From a virus, in the IMG/VR virus record IMGVR_UViG_3300048556_000290, positions 1 through 34,629 of that record: a stretch of DNA of 34,629 nucleotides. The stretch is one strand, 5' to 3'. The position numbers and the translations under genes were made by a program. This document shows, in pieces, positions 4,650-23,851 of this stretch (its first letter is position 1; each line of letters starts with the position of its first letter). The notes beneath the pieces are model-generated. The model was given only the letters and a program-made list of their open reading frames with translations. It searched no databases and had not been told where the DNA came from.

Positions 4650-6262
4650 TGGCTAGGTACGAACCAATAGGCAGAATGGATGATCCTATTCTTACCGATG
4701 GGGATCGTGGATTTCGTGGTATTGATAGTTACCTAGAGCCTACTACTTTACAGGGCGGTACTGTTGAAACATCGCAGAATATGCGACTAGACGGAGATAT
4801 TGCATCTGTACGCAAAGGCATAGAATTTAAAGCAGGCGGGGTATCCCTTACTTATTCCGCAGGCACAGAGGAAGTATTTGCATCCACCTTATTTTCCGAC
4901 CCGGTAACAGGAACAGAGTTTATTGCCTGTGCCACAAAGGATAAGGTAATCCTATGGAATGATCAGAATAATAGCGGTATCGATATCGCATATCCTGGCG
5001 GTCAAACGGTAGCAAGCGGGGATAATGCTAGCTTCGTGCAGGCGATGGAGAAACTAATCCTGTTTCGTGGCACCGGTAAAGATCCGCTCGAATGGGATGG
5101 GGACTTTACGACCCCCACTGCATTTACGCTCAAGAATAATGCAACCCCCACAGCGGGCAGAGTGGAATGTCCGAGTACAAACTTTGGCACCTTCTTTGCA
5201 AACAGACTGATCGTACCACAGCCAAGTGATTCGCAGTATACCGTAATCATGTCTGACCTCCTGGATACGGATAACTTTTATCCCGCAGAATCGCAGTTTA
5301 GGATTAATCGTGGAACTGCTGATTTTCTAGTGGGATTTACTCCTTACCTGGAGAATCAATTACTCGTATTTTTCCGCAACTCGATCCACATGATAAACAA
5401 TGTGGCACTTACCAATTCAGCGGGAGTCTTTGAGATTACCCGCCAACGCGGATGCGTGGCCCGCAAGAGCATAGCCGCGAGTGGACCACAGATATACTTC
5501 TTATCCGATGATGGTGTATTTACCCTGCAACAAGGGCTTGACCCCGCCAAGGGATTAGGAGTCGCAATCTCGAAGGTAAGCGGAGAAGCAATCCCATTAT
5601 CCCGCCCAATACAGGATCAATTTAAAGAAGTAAACTTCGCCTCTGCGGACAAAGCATGTGGTATCGTATTTGATAATAAATACTACCTCGCAGTCCCCAC
5701 AGGTTCATCCACCGACAATAATAAAATCTTAGTATATGATATCCTTAACACAGCATGGACTTCAGTAGATTCCTTCCCCGCAGGCTTTGTAATCGATGAC
5801 TTTGTCACCGTATTGCATGGAAGCGATCCCACCAAGCGGAGACTCTTCGCAGTCAACGATAAGGGATGGCATTTAATCGAGGAAGGCACCACCGACATCA
5901 CGGGAACGGTAGGGAGCGCAAGCACCACATCCACCGCGATAAGTGCCAAGCTGAAGACCCGCTCCTTTACATTCGGAAATATCGATGTAAAGAGTTGGAA
6001 GAGGGGGCAGTTGGGATGCGAAGTGAGCAACGGGGATCAGTTCACGATCAAGGTCAATACAACAGACCCGGATCGGACGAACACCGTACACACGGAGAAT
6101 GCGACATCGAGCGAGGAGAAGCTGATACGCTTTGGGAGTGGACGCGCAAGAGGTTACGCGGCAAATGTCGAGATCGATGTAACAGCAGGGCGGCCTAGCT
6201 TTCGCCATGTATCGCTTGAAGCGATAACGGGCGGAGCGAATGCACGGAGGGAGATTGCATAA
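4649..6262 (+). CDS. Tail nozzle / stabilisation-type beta-propeller protein
   Basis: 537 residues. Repeated beta-blade patterns run from about residue 60 to 420, for example EKLILFRGTGKDPLEWDG, NQLLVFFRNSIHMINNV, QIYFLSDDGVFTLQQG and NKYYLAVPTG...ILVYDILNTAWTSVDSF. This spacing of strands and W/D-rich turns is typical of the propeller domains in podovirus tail nozzles (P22 gp10 and T7 gp12 type). The C-terminal 110 residues form a separate beta domain. Together with the connector at 361 this would make the short tail. The gene overlaps its neighbours by one base at each end. Confidence 0.6.
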   Translation: MARYEPIGRMDDPILTDGDRGFRGIDSYLEPTTLQGGTVETSQNMRLDGDIASVRKGIEFKAGGVSLTYSAGTEEVFASTLFSDPVTGTEFIACATKDKVILWNDQNNSGIDIAYPGGQTVASGDNASFVQAMEKLILFRGTGKDPLEWDGDFTTPTAFTLKNNATPTAGRVECPSTNFGTFFANRLIVPQPSDSQYTVIMSDLLDTDNFYPAESQFRINRGTADFLVGFTPYLENQLLVFFRNSIHMINNVALTNSAGVFEITRQRGCVARKSIAASGPQIYFLSDDGVFTLQQGLDPAKGLGVAISKVSGEAIPLSRPIQDQFKEVNFASADKACGIVFDNKYYLAVPTGSSTDNNKILVYDILNTAWTSVDSFPAGFVIDDFVTVLHGSDPTKRRLFAVNDKGWHLIEEGTTDITGTVGSASTTSTAISAKLKTRSFTFGNIDVKSWKRGQLGCEVSNGDQFTIKVNTTDPDRTNTVHTENATSSEEKLIRFGSGRARGYAANVEIDVTAGRPSFRHVSLEAITGGANARREIA

Positions 6263-15583: not shown

Positions 15584-16147
15584 ATGGGATTCTTAGATAA
15601 CATAAAAGATGTTCCGCAAAGCTCTTCGAGCGGTGGCGGTAATTACATGAAATTAACGCAAGGTACGAATCATTTTCGTATAGTTGGATCTTCCGATGAT
15701 GGTGGAGTAATCCAGGGTATGCTAGGTTGGGCGGGTTCCGCTGATGGTGGAAGAAGACCGCATCGTTGGAAGATCGGAGAGGATGCGCCAATGAGTTTTG
15801 AAGAGAAACCAAAGCAGTTCTTGGCGATGCTCGTATATAACTATGAGGAGGAGCGTATACAGATACTTGAATTGACTCAGGCAAAGTTACGCCAGGAGTT
15901 AATCACGCTTGCGAAGGATGAGGATTGGGGAGATCCACGCAAGTATGACCTGAAGATTGTACGCAATGGCGAAGGTTTGGAAACATCCTATGCGATGACT
16001 CCATCTCCGCACAAGAAGCGTAGTGATGAGATCAATGCGGCGGTGAAGGAGATGAAGATAAACCTCGAAGCATTATTCACCGGGGATGATCCATTTGCGC
16101 CACCTCCTGAGCCTGAAGATAACGCAAAAGAGGAGGACCCATTCTGA
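15584..16147 (+). CDS. Single-stranded DNA-binding-like protein
   Basis: 187 residues. The N-terminal part (about 20-110) has the beta-rich pattern of phage ssDNA-binding proteins (YMKLTQGTNHFRIVGSSDDG, GRRPHRWK). The C-terminus is a flexible acidic tail ending in EEDPF, similar to the acidic, Phe-ended tails with which SSB and gp32-type proteins contact replication partners. It opens the rightward replication and recombination operon, and its stop codon overlaps the next start. SSB role is inferred from the tail, length and context. Confidence 0.6.
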   Translation: MGFLDNIKDVPQSSSSGGGNYMKLTQGTNHFRIVGSSDDGGVIQGMLGWAGSADGGRRPHRWKIGEDAPMSFEEKPKQFLAMLVYNYEEERIQILELTQAKLRQELITLAKDEDWGDPRKYDLKIVRNGEGLETSYAMTPSPHKKRSDEINAAVKEMKINLEALFTGDDPFAPPPEPEDNAKEEDPF

Positions 16148-16443
16148 TGGCGATTAGCGACATAAAAAAGATAGTGGCGGATTACATGGGAACTACGGTT
16201 GATGAGATCAATTCCCGTAATCGTTTCAAGAATGTGGCACTAGCTCGTCAGATCGCGATGTTCTATTCGCATCTGATGGGCAACACACAGGAGGAAGTGG
16301 CTGAGAAGTTTGATCGAGTCCATACGAATGTGACCCATGCGGTGAAGAAGGTAAAGCAATGGCGGGAATGTGATCATGAGATCCGCGCAATGCTTGAAGG
16401 CATAGAAGGACAATATCCTCAACTGAAAGGCTTATCATGCTAA
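16147..16443 (+). CDS. Stand-alone DnaA domain IV (origin-binding helix-turn-helix) protein
   Basis: 98 residues that correspond only to the DNA-binding C-terminal domain of DnaA. VADYMGTTVDEINSRNRFKN and VALARQIAMFYSHLMGNTQE match the first helices of the family, and FDRVHTNVTHAVKKVKQW matches the DnaA signature region, where 'DHTTV..A' is usual and here reads 'VHTNVTHA'. There is no AAA+ ATPase part. The protein could mark a phage origin for host DnaA or for the phage helicase loader, or compete with host DnaA. It sits between the SSB-like and exonuclease genes and overlaps the latter. Confidence 0.75.
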   Translation: MAISDIKKIVADYMGTTVDEINSRNRFKNVALARQIAMFYSHLMGNTQEEVAEKFDRVHTNVTHAVKKVKQWRECDHEIRAMLEGIEGQYPQLKGLSC

Positions 16444-19006: not shown

Positions 19007-19123
19007 ATGGATGGGATAAGAAATGTACTTAAGTTACTACTTCATGGACTGCTTTTTGCAGTCTGTGGGGTAGTATTTTTCACAATTATCATGGGACTTG
19101 TTTGCACAATTTTAGGATTATAA
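19007..19123 (+). CDS. 38-residue membrane peptide
   Basis: A tiny gene between the ParB-like and helicase-loader genes. The ATG lies five bases after the preceding stop, and the stop shares one base with the next ATG (TAATG). Almost the whole product after residue 7 is hydrophobic (LLFAVCGVVFFTIIMGLVCT), enough for one membrane pass. No clear ribosome-binding site is seen. Role unknown; small phage membrane peptides of this type may modify host envelope functions. Confidence 0.5.
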   Translation: MDGIRNVLKLLLHGLLFAVCGVVFFTIIMGLVCTILGL

Positions 19124-19608
19124 TGACAGACGAAATACAGAAAAAGACAGAACTGCGCATCAAGGTTCCTCAATGGATAAGTGATCTTTTGAAAGAGCAT
19201 TGTGATCTTTATGGAGTGACCGCAGTTTCCACCATTACTCCACTCCTGGTGGAGTATCTGCGGCATCCCTCGCGCGTGCGCGACAATTGTTCCAATTGTT
19301 TTAATATTAATAATAGCGAAAAATCCGCGATTAGTGGAAAGAAGAAAACAAAAACGAGGGCATCCAAGATACCCTCTAATTTTGATCCTCCCAAAGAGAT
19401 TGCATTGAAGGAAGGACTCAATCACTCGGAAGCGGTTTCCATCTTCGTGGATTGGGCGAAGGGCAAGGGACATGTCCAAGCAGATTGGATTGCCACATAT
19501 CGCAATGCATGCAGGAGATGGATCAAGGACAAGATGCCCCAGGCAAATAACGATCCAATCCTCAAGGAGGTCACAATTCCTGAATACGAGGACGAGGAAG
19601 AGTTTTGA
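19123..19608 (+). CDS. Replisome organiser / helicase loader-like protein
   Basis: 161 residues from the ATG at 19123. Residues 10-45 form an RHH- or HTH-like region (LRIKVPQWISDLLKEHCDLY), followed by a basic linker (KKTKTRASK). The C-terminal domain (FDPPKEIALKEGLNHSEAVS, IFVDWAKGKGHVQADWIATY, RNACRRWIKD) follows the pattern of DnaT-like and phage replication-protein C-terminal domains, with a typical 'DW.A..RN..RRW' ending. It is directly followed, with one shared base, by the DnaB-type helicase gene. Loading that helicase at an origin is the likely job. Confidence 0.65.
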   Translation: MTDEIQKKTELRIKVPQWISDLLKEHCDLYGVTAVSTITPLLVEYLRHPSRVRDNCSNCFNINNSEKSAISGKKKTKTRASKIPSNFDPPKEIALKEGLNHSEAVSIFVDWAKGKGHVQADWIATYRNACRRWIKDKMPQANNDPILKEVTIPEYEDEEEF

Positions 19609-20867
19609 TGGATTTCCTTGTATCAGAGCAGGCGGTCCTAGCCGCATGTCTTAGGGATGACACAAATCTCTCCACCGCCACAGCGGTTGAGCGTTTAACG
19701 GAGGATGACTTCACCTCGCCCGCGCACAAAGCGATATTCCGTTTGATCGCACAGCGATCCGAGGTCAACGAGGTGGATGTGGCGATTGAGCTACCTGAGT
19801 ATTCCTCAGAAGCTCTAGAACTTGCGGAGAAGTATGGCGGTGGACAGGTGGAGAGATATGTGGATCAATTGGTGGAGTCGAGGAACAGACGCGAAGTGGA
19901 ACGAGCGCTCATGGTATCTACGGATATGCTCAGGGAGGGTAAACAATCAGATGAGATTGCCTCAGAGTTCAATCTCAGGGTAGCCAAAGCATTAGCATCA
20001 GGGAAGGGACAGGTAAAAGTGGGACCCGCCACCAAGGAAGCACATTCTGAGTTTCTTTCCATAGATGCGGGAGAATCATCCGCAGTAAGCACAGGATTCA
20101 AACGATTGGATTTTTGTCTAAGCGGAGGATTCCAACCGGGAAAGCTTTATGTCCTAGCCGCAAGACCTGGGGTAGGGAAGTCAGGACTCGCATTGCATTT
20201 CTCTCATGAGATTGCCAAGAGGGGATACCGTGCAAGCTACGCATCTTTGGAGATGAGTGCTTCGGAATGCTCCGGGCGGTTACTCTCCCGCGAGAGCGGG
20301 GTTGCCCGCCCACGCATGAAAGGGGATCTTCTCCCCGCACATCGTAAGAAGCTCGAGGATGCCACAAAGAGGATGCAGGGATGGCCCATCACCTTCAAGG
20401 ATGACAACAAGGCCACGCTTGATTCCATCCGCGCCTTTCTCGCCCAAGAACGAGTGAAAGGAGATGTGGGGTTGGCGGTGATTGATTATTTGCAATTAGT
20501 CTCCGCTCCAGGATACGAATCCCGCGTGCAGGAGATCACCGCCATTTCTCGTAGTCTCAAACAGATCAGTATGGAATTACAGATTCCGGTCCTCGCCCTT
20601 TCTCAATTATCAAGACAATGCGAGATCAATAACAGAAAGCCCATGCTCTCCGATCTGAGAGACTCCGGGAGTATCGAACAGGATGCAGATTGCGTGTTTC
20701 TCCTATCAGTTGAGGACAAGGTGGATGAGACCAAGGACCGCATCAATTGCCATATCGCCAAAAACCGCGGTGGAGAGACTGATCTCATGGTCACGCTTGG
20801 TTTTGAGAAGAGTACGGGCAATTGGACTACAAGCCTAGGCGAAAAGAAAGAAACAAAGCCTTGGTGA
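19608..20867 (+). CDS. dnaB: DnaB-type replicative DNA helicase
   Basis: 419 residues from the ATG at 19608 (an upstream in-frame TTG is less likely). The N-terminal helical domain (MDFLVSEQAVLAACLRDDTN) and RecA-like core are complete: Walker A ARPGVGKS (185-192), catalytic Glu near 215 (YASLEMS), Walker B Asp293 (LAVIDYLQLV), the LALSQLSRQCE sensor loop and the RDSGSIEQDAD motif. It unwinds the phage fork 5' to 3'. Because no phage DNA polymerase is seen, it must work with host DNA polymerase III. The product is followed by a bidirectional terminator. Confidence 0.92.
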   Translation: MDFLVSEQAVLAACLRDDTNLSTATAVERLTEDDFTSPAHKAIFRLIAQRSEVNEVDVAIELPEYSSEALELAEKYGGGQVERYVDQLVESRNRREVERALMVSTDMLREGKQSDEIASEFNLRVAKALASGKGQVKVGPATKEAHSEFLSIDAGESSAVSTGFKRLDFCLSGGFQPGKLYVLAARPGVGKSGLALHFSHEIAKRGYRASYASLEMSASECSGRLLSRESGVARPRMKGDLLPAHRKKLEDATKRMQGWPITFKDDNKATLDSIRAFLAQERVKGDVGLAVIDYLQLVSAPGYESRVQEITAISRSLKQISMELQIPVLALSQLSRQCEINNRKPMLSDLRDSGSIEQDADCVFLLSVEDKVDETKDRINCHIAKNRGGETDLMVTLGFEKSTGNWTTSLGEKKETKPW

Positions 20868-20883
20868 ACTACAGATGGATACT

Positions 20884-20928
20884 AAAAAGCACGATAGAGG
20901 CTCAGGAAGGCATCAAATCGTGCTTTTT
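20884..20928. terminator. Bidirectional rho-independent terminator
   Basis: AAAAAGCACGAT (20884-20895) and ATCGTGCTTTTT (20917-20928) are perfect 12-base inverted arms around 21 bases. With A and T runs on the two sides it can stop the rightward helicase transcript and the leftward small-gene transcript, which converge here. Confidence 0.85.
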
Positions 20929-20976: not shown

Positions 20977-21105
20977 CTAGGTGCCTTCCTGCCGATTTCT
21001 CTTATTCCACCATTCCAACGCCCTGGGCGCGTACCTCATCAGCAAAAAGATGATAAGACCCAACGCCAGGCGTGCAATTGTGTCGGACTCGTTTTTACTT
21101 CTCAT
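20977..21105 (-). CDS. 42-residue membrane protein, last gene of the leftward operon
   Basis: The ATG (complement of 21103-21105) shares one base with the stop codon of the gene upstream (TAATG). The product has a charged N-terminus, a hydrophobic segment at about 11-24 (ARLALGLIIFLLMRYA) and a basic tail (WWNKRNRQEGT), fitting one membrane pass. No family recognised. The convergent terminator follows 49 bases further on, which supports a real transcript end. Confidence 0.55.
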   Translation of the reverse strand: MRSKNESDTIARLALGLIIFLLMRYAPRALEWWNKRNRQEGT

Positions 21106-21302
21106 TAATTGAAGTTAAAATGTAACTGCAATTTCTCGCGCTCAGTCAGCCTCACATGTGCGCGTTTCTCCTTACGCTTAGCGCGGATCGTTTCACGATC
21201 GCCCGCCTTGCGTTCCCTCGTTTCTCTTTCCTTTCGTGCTTTCTCGCCTATCTCGATCAATTGACTGACCGCCTGAGCGAATAGGTTTTCGGCGTGCTTC
21301 AT
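21105..21302 (-). CDS. Highly charged 65-residue protein
   Basis: 65 residues. The first third is an amphipathic helix (ENLFAQAVSQLIEIGEKARK), and the rest is dominated by alternating Arg, Lys and Glu (RETRERKAGDRETIRAKRKE), probably a single long charged helix. Its start overlaps the stop of the upstream membrane gene by four bases and its stop shares one base with the downstream start. It contains one copy of the GATCGT-TTC-ACGATC hairpin inside the reading frame (21186-21200). Function unknown. Confidence 0.6.
   Translation of the reverse strand: MKHAENLFAQAVSQLIEIGEKARKERETRERKAGDRETIRAKRKEKRAHVRLTEREKLQLHFNFN
21186..21200. repeat. GATC-TTC hairpin, copy 1
   Basis: GATCGT-TTC-ACGATC, six-pair stem with a TTC loop, inside an 18-base block GCGGATCGTTTCACGATC identical to the one at 22870. 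This copy lies inside the 65-residue gene. Confidence 0.75.
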
Positions 21303-21400
21303 TGGTCCCCGCCTTTCTCGTATTGGATAAGATCCCAGGCTATGACAGCGAAAACCGGAACCCAGGGTAAAAAGAAAATTAGTTCAAATAGTGTATTCAT
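21299..21400 (-). CDS. 33-residue membrane peptide
   Basis: The peptide is hydrophobic at about residues 5-22 (FELIFFLPWVPVFAVIAW) with a polar C-terminus (LIQYEKGGDQ). The stop overlaps the start of the 65-residue gene by four bases (ATGA), so the two are coupled. No ribosome-binding site is clear and the start is inferred. Role unknown. Confidence 0.5.
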   Translation of the reverse strand: MNTLFELIFFLPWVPVFAVIAWDLIQYEKGGDQ

Positions 21401-21465
21401 ATGTATAAATGTGTAGTATATTCAAGTAAATAAAAGCGCGTTTCTCGTTTGGATTAGAACCGCGT

Positions 21466-21624
21466 CTAGTCGAGTGCTTTCTCTAGATCAATAATGATAA
21501 TATTTAAGTCCTGTTTTATCTCGCTCATCTTATCCCAGGAAAAGCCTTTTTCTTCCATTTCTCTTATCATGGCTTGCAAGCTTATGAGTTGACCAAGTAA
21601 AGCGCGTGTTTGTTCCTTATTCAT
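21466..21624 (-). CDS. 52-residue helical hypothetical protein
   Basis: The ATG overlaps the stop of the zinc-ribbon gene by four bases and is preceded by a purine-rich AGAAG stretch. The product is helical and soluble (QTRALLGQLISLQAMIREME, MSEIKQDLNIIIIDLEKALD) and could form a helical hairpin. No family recognised. A gap of 65 bases separates it from the next leftward gene. Confidence 0.55.
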   Translation of the reverse strand: MNKEQTRALLGQLISLQAMIREMEEKGFSWDKMSEIKQDLNIIIIDLEKALD

Positions 21625-21797
21625 TTATTCTTCTTTCTATATTCTTTAACTTCTTTAGATGTTCCGCATTCATCGCACAAATTAAAATTCCATTGCCCGC
21701 GGTCATAAAAGAAAAGCCAATTTGCTTTAATTTGTTTGCAATGCGGACAAGTGCTTTTTTCGTGTTCGGGTATTTGCTTAAAAAGTTTTGAATTCAT
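21621..21797 (-). CDS. Zinc-ribbon mini-protein
   Basis: 58 residues with two CxxC knuckles, Cys17/Cys20 (STCPHCKQ) and Cys41/Cys44 (LCDECGTS), spaced as in small zinc ribbons, and a basic tail (KEYRKKNK). An AAAGGAT ribosome-binding site precedes the ATG. It follows the GP88-like gene by 14 bases. Zinc-ribbon mini-proteins in phages often bind host transcription or replication proteins, but the target here is unknown. Confidence 0.6.
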   Translation of the reverse strand: MNSKLFKQIPEHEKSTCPHCKQIKANWLFFYDRGQWNFNLCDECGTSKEVKEYRKKNK

Positions 21798-21811
21798 TTC
21801 TCTTATCCTTT

Positions 21812-22762
21812 CTAGCTGTGTATTCCAATACCAATTACAACGCCGCGCAACCTATCGGAACCGCACGCATGCTGTTTGCGTGCAATGCAATTGCCACATG
21901 CTCCCGGACAAGCAAAGACTTTCTTATGGCCCGCTTTTCTCAATTGGATTGCAACTTCTTTACGGTATTCGTTTGAACCATCATTGTCTTTGTCCTGGTA
22001 GGCCTTGCTAGTTATCCATTTCCTTGCAACGGGGACCGCTACAAACTCGCCGCGCGTGCAATCCAATTGCAAAACCTTATCTTTAACTTTGGAACCGTAC
22101 CGGGACCCGCTTGAAACATTTAAAAGATAGTTTGCCGGGAAAGAATACCCTTGCTTGTCCAAAGTAAGAAATAATTGCCATGATTTTGAATAACCGTATA
22201 CCTTCAAATCTTCCCGCGCTTTGCATTGGTCCATCCAAAAGCGCAAAATTGCTAAATTGGCAAAATCCCCGTCAACATAAAGGCGAACGGTCCGCCCGGC
22301 GGGAATATTAGCAAATTCATTTGAGATTAAGGCCCGGCCCGCTTTTGACCGTAAAAGAATACTGTTTTGCAATTGCCGGAAAAAAGCCGCCGGGTAACGC
22401 CACCCGGTAAATGAATAGCACCAACCTTTCCCAAAGTTTTCCGGCGTAAAATCATTGTCCCCGTACAAACAAGCGCCCGCACCCGGACAATCGAAACCGG
22501 GTAAACTCGAAAATGCATAGAATGGCAATTTCATGTTACCTGATTCTGCAAATACGGAAAAATACAACGGCCCGCTTTGATCTTCGAACCAAGAAAGGAA
22601 CCGCGTTGCATAGTACTTAGTGGTACCGCGTGCGCTCGGATCTCCAGGAATAGCCGCAATAAGTTTGGAGAGTAAGGGTAAATCATTGGCAAGCGCGGCC
22701 CGCGCTAAATCAATTTTACCCGGCGTGGATAATTTGGGTGGAATCATAGTTTTTTCTTTCAT
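21812..22762 (-). CDS. GP88-like cysteine-rich protein
   Basis: 316 residues; a second in-frame ATG at 22747 is possible. The pattern resembles the phage 'gene product 88' family: an early SLPGFDCPGAGACLYG motif, a GWCYSFTGWRYPAAFFRQLQ helix, conserved VRLYVDGDFAN, and a C-terminal cysteine group (VFACPGACGNCIARKQHACG). The Cys spacing suggests a metal or Fe-S site. The family has no established activity known to me. Its DNA is unusually rich in CCGG- and CAATTG-type palindromes and has different codon use from neighbours, which suggests separate origin. It heads a leftward operon with its own promoter. Confidence 0.6.
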   Translation of the reverse strand: MKEKTMIPPKLSTPGKIDLARAALANDLPLLSKLIAAIPGDPSARGTTKYYATRFLSWFEDQSGPLYFSVFAESGNMKLPFYAFSSLPGFDCPGAGACLYGDNDFTPENFGKGWCYSFTGWRYPAAFFRQLQNSILLRSKAGRALISNEFANIPAGRTVRLYVDGDFANLAILRFWMDQCKAREDLKVYGYSKSWQLFLTLDKQGYSFPANYLLNVSSGSRYGSKVKDKVLQLDCTRGEFVAVPVARKWITSKAYQDKDNDGSNEYRKEVAIQLRKAGHKKVFACPGACGNCIARKQHACGSDRLRGVVIGIGIHS

Positions 22763-22769
22763 GCTTCCA

Positions 22770-22799
22770 TCTATAAACTACAGATAGCAACAAAGTCAA
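22770..22799 (-). promoter_or_regulatory. Leftward promoter of the GP88-like operon
   Basis: On the - strand TTGACT is followed after 18 bases by TATAGA (complement of 22770-22775), a good sigma70 match. The -10 begins 13 bases before the ATG at 22762, so the mRNA would start at or very near the start codon. AACTACAGAT (22776-22785, + strand) lies between the two boxes. Confidence 0.55.
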
Positions 22800-22872
22800 A
22801 CAAATAAAACAAAAAAGTGTATTCATACCTTTAACACTATAGAAACGCGCTCCCTTACTTCGCGGATCAGCG

Positions 22873-22887
22873 GATCGTTTCACGATC
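22873..22887. repeat. GATC-TTC hairpin, copy 2
   Basis: Same GATCGT-TTC-ACGATC hairpin and the same 18-base block (22870-22887) as copy 1, here in non-coding DNA and joined to the palindrome GATCATATGATC. Confidence 0.75.
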
Positions 22888-23006
22888 ATATGATCAGCGC
22901 CAAGAGCTACCACATGAGCAATGGATTGACGCGGATCAAGGCAAAAAGCGATTGACGCAAATCGACAGATATCAATGCATTTCTGCACCCATGGCTAAAA
23001 AATCAC

Positions 23007-23027
23007 TATTGCAAGTAACTTGCAATA
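23007..23027. repeat. Perfect 21-base palindrome
   Basis: Arms TATTGCAAGT and ACTTGCAATA around a single A. A second short palindrome ATTGC-AC-GCAAT follows at 23032-23043. Protein-binding site or cruciform in the candidate origin. Confidence 0.6.
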
Positions 23028-23153
23028 AGAGATTGCACGCAATGCGGAAAACAGCTTGCCATGAATCCGCAAGAATCCGCTTAAAACCTAGCATGTTTTC
23101 CCGCTTTCCTGGCGTGCAATTGCGTAAAGTGCTGATAGTCAACGCTATCATGT

Positions 23154-23178
23154 AGCATGTGACTTAGAATCACATGCT
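23154..23178. repeat. Strong hairpin in the non-coding region
   Basis: AGCATGTGA (23154-23162) and TCACATGCT (23170-23178), nine perfect pairs around a seven-base loop. No T-run follows, so it is not a standard terminator. Confidence 0.6.
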
Positions 23179-23285
23179 TTCGAGCTAACGCGCGTTAACG
23201 CCAGGCGCGCAGACCCGGGGGGGCGGGGGTGTGCGCTCGTCCGCGCTAATTCTGTATTATCATCACCACCCCGCATAATTTTTTC

Positions 23286-23335
23286 GCCATACGGTTTCCC
23301 CGCAAATCGCGCCTCCTGCCATACGGTTTCCCCGC
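23286..23335. repeat. Pair of 18-base direct repeats
   Basis: GCCATACGGTTTCCCCGC occurs at 23286-23303 and 23318-23335, a 32-base period. The period is not a multiple of three, so the repeat is conserved as DNA, not as protein. Iteron or regulator-binding site likely. Confidence 0.7.
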
Positions 23336-23383
23336 CATTTGCCTTATCCCTCACATCAAGCGTTAGTCCTCGCCTTATACGCG

Positions 23384-23398
23384 GATCGGTTCCCGATC
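23384..23398. repeat. GATC-TTC hairpin, copy 3 with a compensatory base pair
   Basis: GATCGG-TTC-CCGATC: the last stem pair is G-C instead of T-A, so pairing and the TTC loop are kept although both bases changed. Outer arms ATACG (23377-23381) and CGTAT (23402-23406) extend it. Confidence 0.65.
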
Positions 23399-23431: not shown

Positions 23432-23851
23432 CTACGGGGTTTTAAAGAGATCCCACGCCTCGCGGTATTTTTCGTGCTTTGCCTTGGAGAGTGGGTTATG
23501 AGCGTAGAGGGATATGCGCAGGGCCTGGTTTAGTTCGAGGCATGGTATTATGTACCAAGTGGGTATAGCTTCGACATAAGCGGCGAGTATGTCGACTTTC
23601 GTGCAATCTATGGTCATTTTCTTGGAAGTGCCTGATGCGGTGGTGATCATATATCTGCCTTGTCCGGCATTTGCTTTATCGAATACTTTATCCTTAGTGC
23701 CTTTGATTTGTACTTTGAATACTTTGCCCGCTTGGTTCATGACTAGGCAATCCTGAGGTAGGTAATCGCCCAGGGGGGTAAATACTTCAAGATTACGGGA
23801 TAGTGCTTCCGTGAAGAATGTTTGTTCGTAGAGGGAGCCTCTACGCTTCAT
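23432..23851 (-). CDS. PD-(D/E)XK endonuclease
   Basis: 139 residues that fit the small PD-(D/E)XK endonuclease family (PF11645-like, related to archaeal resolvases and to some intron endonucleases). Motifs in order: LYEQTFFTEALSRNLEVFTP at the N-terminus, Asp34 (GDYLPQDCLV), the Q-I-K triad 48-50 (KVFKVQIKGT), and the later KVDILAAYVEAIPTWYIIPC strand-helix. It overlaps the upstream gene by 11 bases. It may cut branched or foreign DNA; the natural substrate is unknown. The 670-base non-coding region lies directly downstream. Confidence 0.75.
   Translation of the reverse strand: MKRRGSLYEQTFFTEALSRNLEVFTPLGDYLPQDCLVMNQAGKVFKVQIKGTKDKVFDKANAGQGRYMITTASGTSKKMTIDCTKVDILAAYVEAIPTWYIIPCLELNQALRISLYAHNPLSKAKHEKYREAWDLFKTP

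Follow-up and report, generated by a model that had tools for sequence, protein, structure and literature searches.

Triloop hairpins with covarying stems and a fixed loop strand are confined to the dnaB-containing module of an uncultivated phage group

The window, the whole stretch of DNA analysed here, is a 34,629-bp uncultivated virus record (IMGVR_UViG_3300048556_000290) in which p168 and dnaB are followed, beyond an inverted repeat that probably functions as a terminator, by the leftward genes of a p168-dnaB-A65-gp316-g139-g172 module (Table 1). gp316 (21812-22762) has a Pfam GP88 match (3.2e-14) and is present in only some relatives, and two short, membrane-like leftward ORFs that start with MNTLF are located at 21386-21408, before A65, and at 22812-22834, before gp316. 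A stand-alone DnaA C-terminal (domain IV) protein is encoded at 16147-16443 (Pfam Bac_DnaA_C, 3.9e-18). No tRNA was detected.

Table 1. Genes, hairpin sites and adjoining elements of the module, with positions in the window
Feature	Position	Strand	Basis and remarks
p168, replication initiator-like	19102..19608	+	RHH-like N-terminus, DnaT-like C-terminus (predicted)
Site E, ACAATTG-TTC-CAATTGT hairpin	19283..19299	+	inside p168, adjoins AT-rich tract
AT-rich tract, tttaatattaataata	19300..19315	.	sequence; beside site E
dnaB, replicative helicase	19605..20867	+	PHROG 19 DnaB-like helicase, 1.5e-80
Site D, GATCGC-ACA-GCGATC palindrome	19745..19759	+	inside dnaB; weaker member, loop not TYC
Bidirectional terminator-like hairpin	20884..20928	.	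inverted repeat with A-rich and T-rich flanks; divides dnaB (+) from leftward genes
A65, conserved 65-aa basic protein	21105..21302	-	family protein alignment; gene bears site A
Site A (copy 1), GATCGT-TTC-ACGATC	21186..21200	+	inside A65 ORF; orthologous in 70 unique regions
Site B, extended hairpin	22861..22899	+	outer GATCA/TGATC (22865-22869 with 22891-22895), 3x3 internal loop, then CGC/GCG
Site B, inner hairpin (copy 2), GATCGT-TTC-ACGATC	22873..22887	+	exact match
Site C (copy 3), GATCGG-TTC-CCGATC	23384..23398	+	34 bp past g139 stop; position kept in relatives

About 140 loci of this phage group, which is uncultivated and marine or estuarine, were collected from viral contigs by two protein scans and one pattern scan. 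The pattern scan left the closing pair of the hairpin free, and this pair is complementary in 36 of 37 matches in family contigs versus 8 of 47 unrelated matches; the single family exception, L145, has a flank identical to that of an unrelated match, L131, and its membership of the group may be doubtful. Class-wide counts refer to 75 non-redundant relative contigs (616 kb), with expectations obtained from shuffles, and strand was assigned by the orientation of dnaB, + being dnaB-sense. The core region has no sequence similarity to known phages, among which gp316 also has no match, and TerL matched only one unplaced phage, C75C1, with 31% identity; the 30 kb of C75C1 examined contain no TYC triloop hairpin with a stem of 6 bp or more. 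Two scans of bacterial genomes revealed no relatives as prophages.

The sequence GATCGTTTCACGATC is present exactly at 21186 and 22873, and GATCGGTTCCCGATC at 23384, all on the + strand, confirming the three copies with a six-pair stem and TTC loop that a sequence-only reading had first noticed, together with the 18-base identical block, GCGGATCGTTTCACGATC, common to copies 1 and 2. None of 200 dinucleotide shuffles generated three triloop hairpins with the same five inner-stem bases and loop. Two details are amended: the copy within a gene is copy 1, in the conserved A65 ORF, and the three-copy set was incomplete, the palindromes in p168 (site E) and dnaB (site D) having been overlooked. A match with one mismatch at 6035, in a tail gene, was taken to be a chance occurrence because the relaxed pattern is present at background frequency.

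Among triloop hairpins with stems of 6 bp or more in the relatives' contigs, 117 have a TTC/GAA loop versus 8.4 expected and 61 a TCC/GGA loop versus 3.8 expected, making these the two strongest of 32 loop classes, with no other class reaching five times expectation. Hairpins with TYC on the + strand number 156 (5.3 expected), and those with TYC on the - strand 22 (7.3 expected). All 156 of the + strand hairpins are located within the module, with none in the 248 kb outside, and 18 of the 19 contigs that contain the whole module have 2 to 4 such hairpins there and none elsewhere. For phage contigs outside the group that were collected through the pattern, the count was 28 versus 13 expected, part of this excess resulting from how these contigs were chosen. 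TYC is on the + strand in 19 of 19 cases in the rightward gene p168, in 44 of 44 cases for the family hairpin in the leftward gene A65, and nearly always at sites B and C; a different hairpin (GAGCTT) accounts for the two - strand TTC cases in the A65 genes of L144 and L185. The class, which is well supported, has a perfectly paired stem of ~6 bp and a 3-nt loop, TTC or TCC when read on the + strand; on the - strand this corresponds to a GNA-type triloop, GAA or GGA.

The stems vary freely. The 135 unique + strand hairpins, all chosen for pairing, have 31 different six-base arms and are closed by T-A (85), G-C (18), A-T (18) or C-G (14), and stems differ between sites of one genome, as exemplified by L036 with GATCGT at A, GGCCGG at B and CAATTG at E. 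The replacement of the T-A closing pair by G-C in copy 3 is real, relatives having any of the four pairs there, and the GATCG letters do not define the conserved element, as 31 different arms bear the same loop. Ideas specific to GATC (Dam sites, HIP1-like repeats) were dropped, since GATC is replaced by GACC, GGCC, CCTC or CCCC. The flanks on the start side of the hairpins have no conserved sequence. It is the fold that is conserved, rather than particular bases.

As perfect pairing was part of the selection of sites B, C, D and E, the unbiased count of wobble pairs comes from site A only, which was read from the orthologous A65 region with pairing ignored. One of the 70 unique regions is without a right arm, and in the other 69 pairs 1 to 5 are all Watson-Crick. 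Eight arms are found, each with its complement (GATCGT, GACCGT, GACCAT, GATCGC, CCTCGT, CCTCGC, CCCCGT and GGCCGA), and there are no G-T or A-C intermediates in the 69 sequences. Pair 6 is a G-A mismatch in four regions, three regions have a tetraloop, and divergent loops, TAAA and GTTTA, are present in a few copies. On the dnaB tree there were at least 23 arm changes, with 16 at pair 3 alone, counts that can be inflated by mosaic exchange among genomes. Almost all indels close to the hairpin have lengths divisible by three. The suggestion, made from the window alone, that a structure is selected has held up: relatives have hairpins at the same places and have kept the pairing through many compensatory changes.

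At site B, the extended hairpin has a DNA fold z of -2.98 on the + strand, and the layout in relatives is an inner and an outer stem separated by a symmetric internal loop (3 to 5 nt per side). Because B sites were chosen by the inner hairpin, the outer stem provides an independent test: a perfect 4-bp outer stem with symmetric spacing is present in 30 of 35 relatives' B sites, with eight different stems, versus a mean of 0.35 and a largest value of 4 when the right flank was shuffled. Site D is more variable. Relatives have GATCGG-TTC-CCGATC, GATCGG-GAA-CCGATC or GATCGC-GAA-GCGATC at this position, the loop varying and the orientation flipping, and the site is missing from the 84-87% clade. 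Other dyads are also present in this region, namely a perfect 9-bp palindrome, TATTGCAAG-TAA-CTTGCAATA, at 23007-23027 between sites B and C, which in relatives is TGCAAG-TTA/TAA-CTTGCA (13 copies), and CGTAGAGG-GAG-CCTCTACG at 23827-23845, which spans the g172/g139 overlap and is kept in relatives. The words that flank hairpins in the relatives' core (dnaB to g139) differ by clade, with TACGCG in close relatives at 0.29 versus 0.04 per kb outside, and GCATGC, beside hairpins in the 55% clade, at 0.88 versus 0.18 per kb outside.

Site E is within the part of p168 that encodes the linker, ~300 nt before dnaB, and a hairpin is found there in nearly all relatives for which this position is covered by sequence. 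The stems differ, examples being CATTCC TCC GGAATG, ATATTCTT TCC AAGAATAT, GGTATTTC TTAC GAAATACC and ACAATTC TAC GAATTGT, and the loops are TTC, TCC, TAC, TTAC, TATC or TAAC. In most relatives, an AT-rich tract comes after site E and is a candidate duplex-unwinding element that could contribute to an origin. GC skew tracks gene direction, with no origin switch at site E, and DnaA boxes are not above chance. A further hairpin, TACTCCAC-TCCTG-GTGGAGTA, is present in p168 at 19236-19256, 26 nt before site E, and is kept in relatives with 52-75% p168 identity.

The p168 protein and its relatives match primosomal proteins (best 5.4e-7; 11 of 18 members) and replication initiation proteins (best 5e-4; 14 of 18 members) in PHROGs. 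The AlphaFold model of p168 (mean pLDDT 72) aligned best with the ssDNA-binding domain of DnaT (4ou6, Z 5.1; also Z 4.7), although these values are modest, and its N-terminus aligned weakly with Arc/CopG folds (Z near 3). Less firmly than for the hairpins, these predictions suggest that p168 is similar to a replication initiator that combines RHH-like and DnaT-like domains. Five genomes (L057, L067, L069, L080 and L170) have a different N-terminal domain, exchanged as a block, and in the same five site E is changed from ACAATTG-TTC to ACAATTC-TAC.

Several alternative functions were considered. Covarying 15-nt hairpins repeated across two operons, one of them within the gene of a small basic protein (site A) and one with a good RNA fold (site B), might be RNA elements such as nut/boxB-like antitermination sites or sites for a phage RNA-binding protein, but this is quite improbable, given that sense transcripts would present UYC loops from p168 but GRA loops from the leftward genes, that no G-U pair is present in the 69 site A sequences despite repeated exchange of T-A and C-G, and that the loops are TYC or GRA with a sixth pair rather than a GNRNA pentaloop. 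There is no match in the window to Rfam at the gathering score, and neither side of A, B or C has the T run of an intrinsic terminator. As site A has no wobble pairs and the strand of the loop follows the genome irrespective of the direction of transcription, the data favour a DNA hairpin rather than RNA, and so the DNA side of the original proposal, in which either RNA or a DNA cruciform could be the selected structure. Double-stranded operators or partition sites, with the palindrome providing two half-sites for a dimeric protein, would be consistent with the perfect dyads, with the clade-specific enrichment of TACGCG or GCATGC in the non-coding core, and with the RHH-like domain in p168 and an HTH-like domain in reg147. 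They are nevertheless unlikely: a single half-site could not account for 31 arms, which differ even between sites of one genome; pairing apart, what is best conserved is the asymmetric loop, whose strand is fixed; and at site B a second stem covaries on the far side of a symmetric internal loop. As a functionless alternative, the arms could be kept identical by mutation, through template switching that makes quasi-palindromes perfect, which would explain both the paired changes without intermediates and the loop flips at site D. It does not explain the fixed strand of the TYC loop (156 to 22), the absence of hairpins outside one module or their persistence at orthologous places over large divergence, and we regard it as very improbable.

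The remaining alternative is an N4-like virion RNA polymerase that uses the hairpins as promoters, with extrusion driven by supercoiling, the - strand as template and rightward transcripts. When applied to the N4 left end, the same scan identified GTTGC TTC GCAAC, AAGAAGC TCC GCTTCTT and AAGCTGC TCC GCAGCTT, all with TYC on the + strand, and 107 of the 135 unique + strand hairpins have the equivalent of the N4 -8G (template strand). The N4 hairpin has a 3-nt loop, a sheared G:A pair that gives stability and the -8G on the template (PMC4496689), and, whereas SSB melts the hairpin on the opposite strand, the template-strand hairpin persists (PMC4496689). However, no polymerase match was obtained for p1076, p799 or p426 in PHROGs, or for p1076 among PDB sequences, the predicted p1076 model being of low confidence (mean pLDDT 43). 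Sites A, B and C are oriented against the leftward genes in which they lie (A) or to which they are antisense (B and C), E and D are inside p168 and dnaB rather than upstream of genes, the closing pair is mostly T-A (85/135) and not C-G as in all three N4 hairpins, and a conserved start-side sequence, as noted above, is absent. Such promoters are therefore improbable here.

Hairpins with strict pairing maintained through repeated arm changes, with a fixed strand and with confinement to p168-g172, may instead mark a replication-initiation module, as strand-specific DNA structures that provide an origin and single-strand-initiation sites guiding priming or DnaB loading, a function that we infer at a little below even odds (~0.45). 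The AT-rich tract by site E would open, or a rightward fork would expose single strands, and the exposed segments could then fold into hairpins that resist SSB and become landmarks at which p168, host primosome proteins and DnaB come together or a primer is begun. Site E would belong to the origin, with A, B and C possibly auxiliary single-strand-initiation or primosome-assembly sites. DnaT, with PriA and PriB, helps load DnaB and was discovered via phiX174 single-strand conversion, and PriB stabilises PriA on a DNA hairpin (PMC4129139). For E, A, B and C a DNA hairpin is predicted on either strand, as expected of phiX174-type sites folding in single-stranded DNA. Against an origin role, the sites span 4 kb, which is wide for an origin. 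More tentatively, the module might constitute a distributed single-strand-initiation system, an undescribed type of replicon with several strand-fixed GNA-triloop hairpins, free in stem sequence, and an initiator with RHH and DnaT-like domains. Literature searches, covering open-access papers, led to N4 hairpins and primosome reviews and to no description of this hairpin set.

DNA-level covarying hairpins, with no wobble at an unbiased site and with a strand-tied loop, have rarely been shown in double-stranded DNA phages, the model case being the N4 promoters. This phage group has the N4-type loop, with no polymerase found, beside a putative initiator with a DnaT-like domain, and it seems that folded DNA, not letters, has been preserved by evolution. 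The 31 stem arms with one loop rule are a natural variant set for tests of hairpin folding and recognition where phage replication begins. A search for strand-specific TYC triloop hairpins restricted to one module can also be applied to other viral genomes.

In physical terms, the closest match is to the N4 promoter hairpins. As in the N4 early promoters, there is a 5-7 bp stem with variable letters, a 3-nt TTC/TCC loop with its GAA/GGA complement on the opposite strand, and few copies, all one way round, in one early region; unlike in N4, no virion RNA polymerase was found, genes contain the sites or run antisense to them, the closing pair is free and no start sequence is conserved. In phage lambda, the boxB element of nut is a 15-nt hairpin, repeated in the phage genome, with a GNRNA pentaloop. 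The hairpins described here are likewise 15 nt and repeated in a phage genome, but have no such pentaloop, no wobble at site A and an orientation that is independent of transcription. With the phiX174-type ssi, or primosome assembly site, they share a DNA hairpin, a predicted DnaT-like protein with DnaB, and proximity to replication genes, although here there are several short triloop hairpins over 4 kb in a double-stranded DNA phage. The lambda-type origin is inside the O initiator gene. Site E and its AT-rich tract are likewise within a putative initiator gene of two domains, in the part encoding the linker, just before the helicase gene, but site E is one hairpin with freely changing letters, no iterons were found and the initiator is RHH/DnaT-like.
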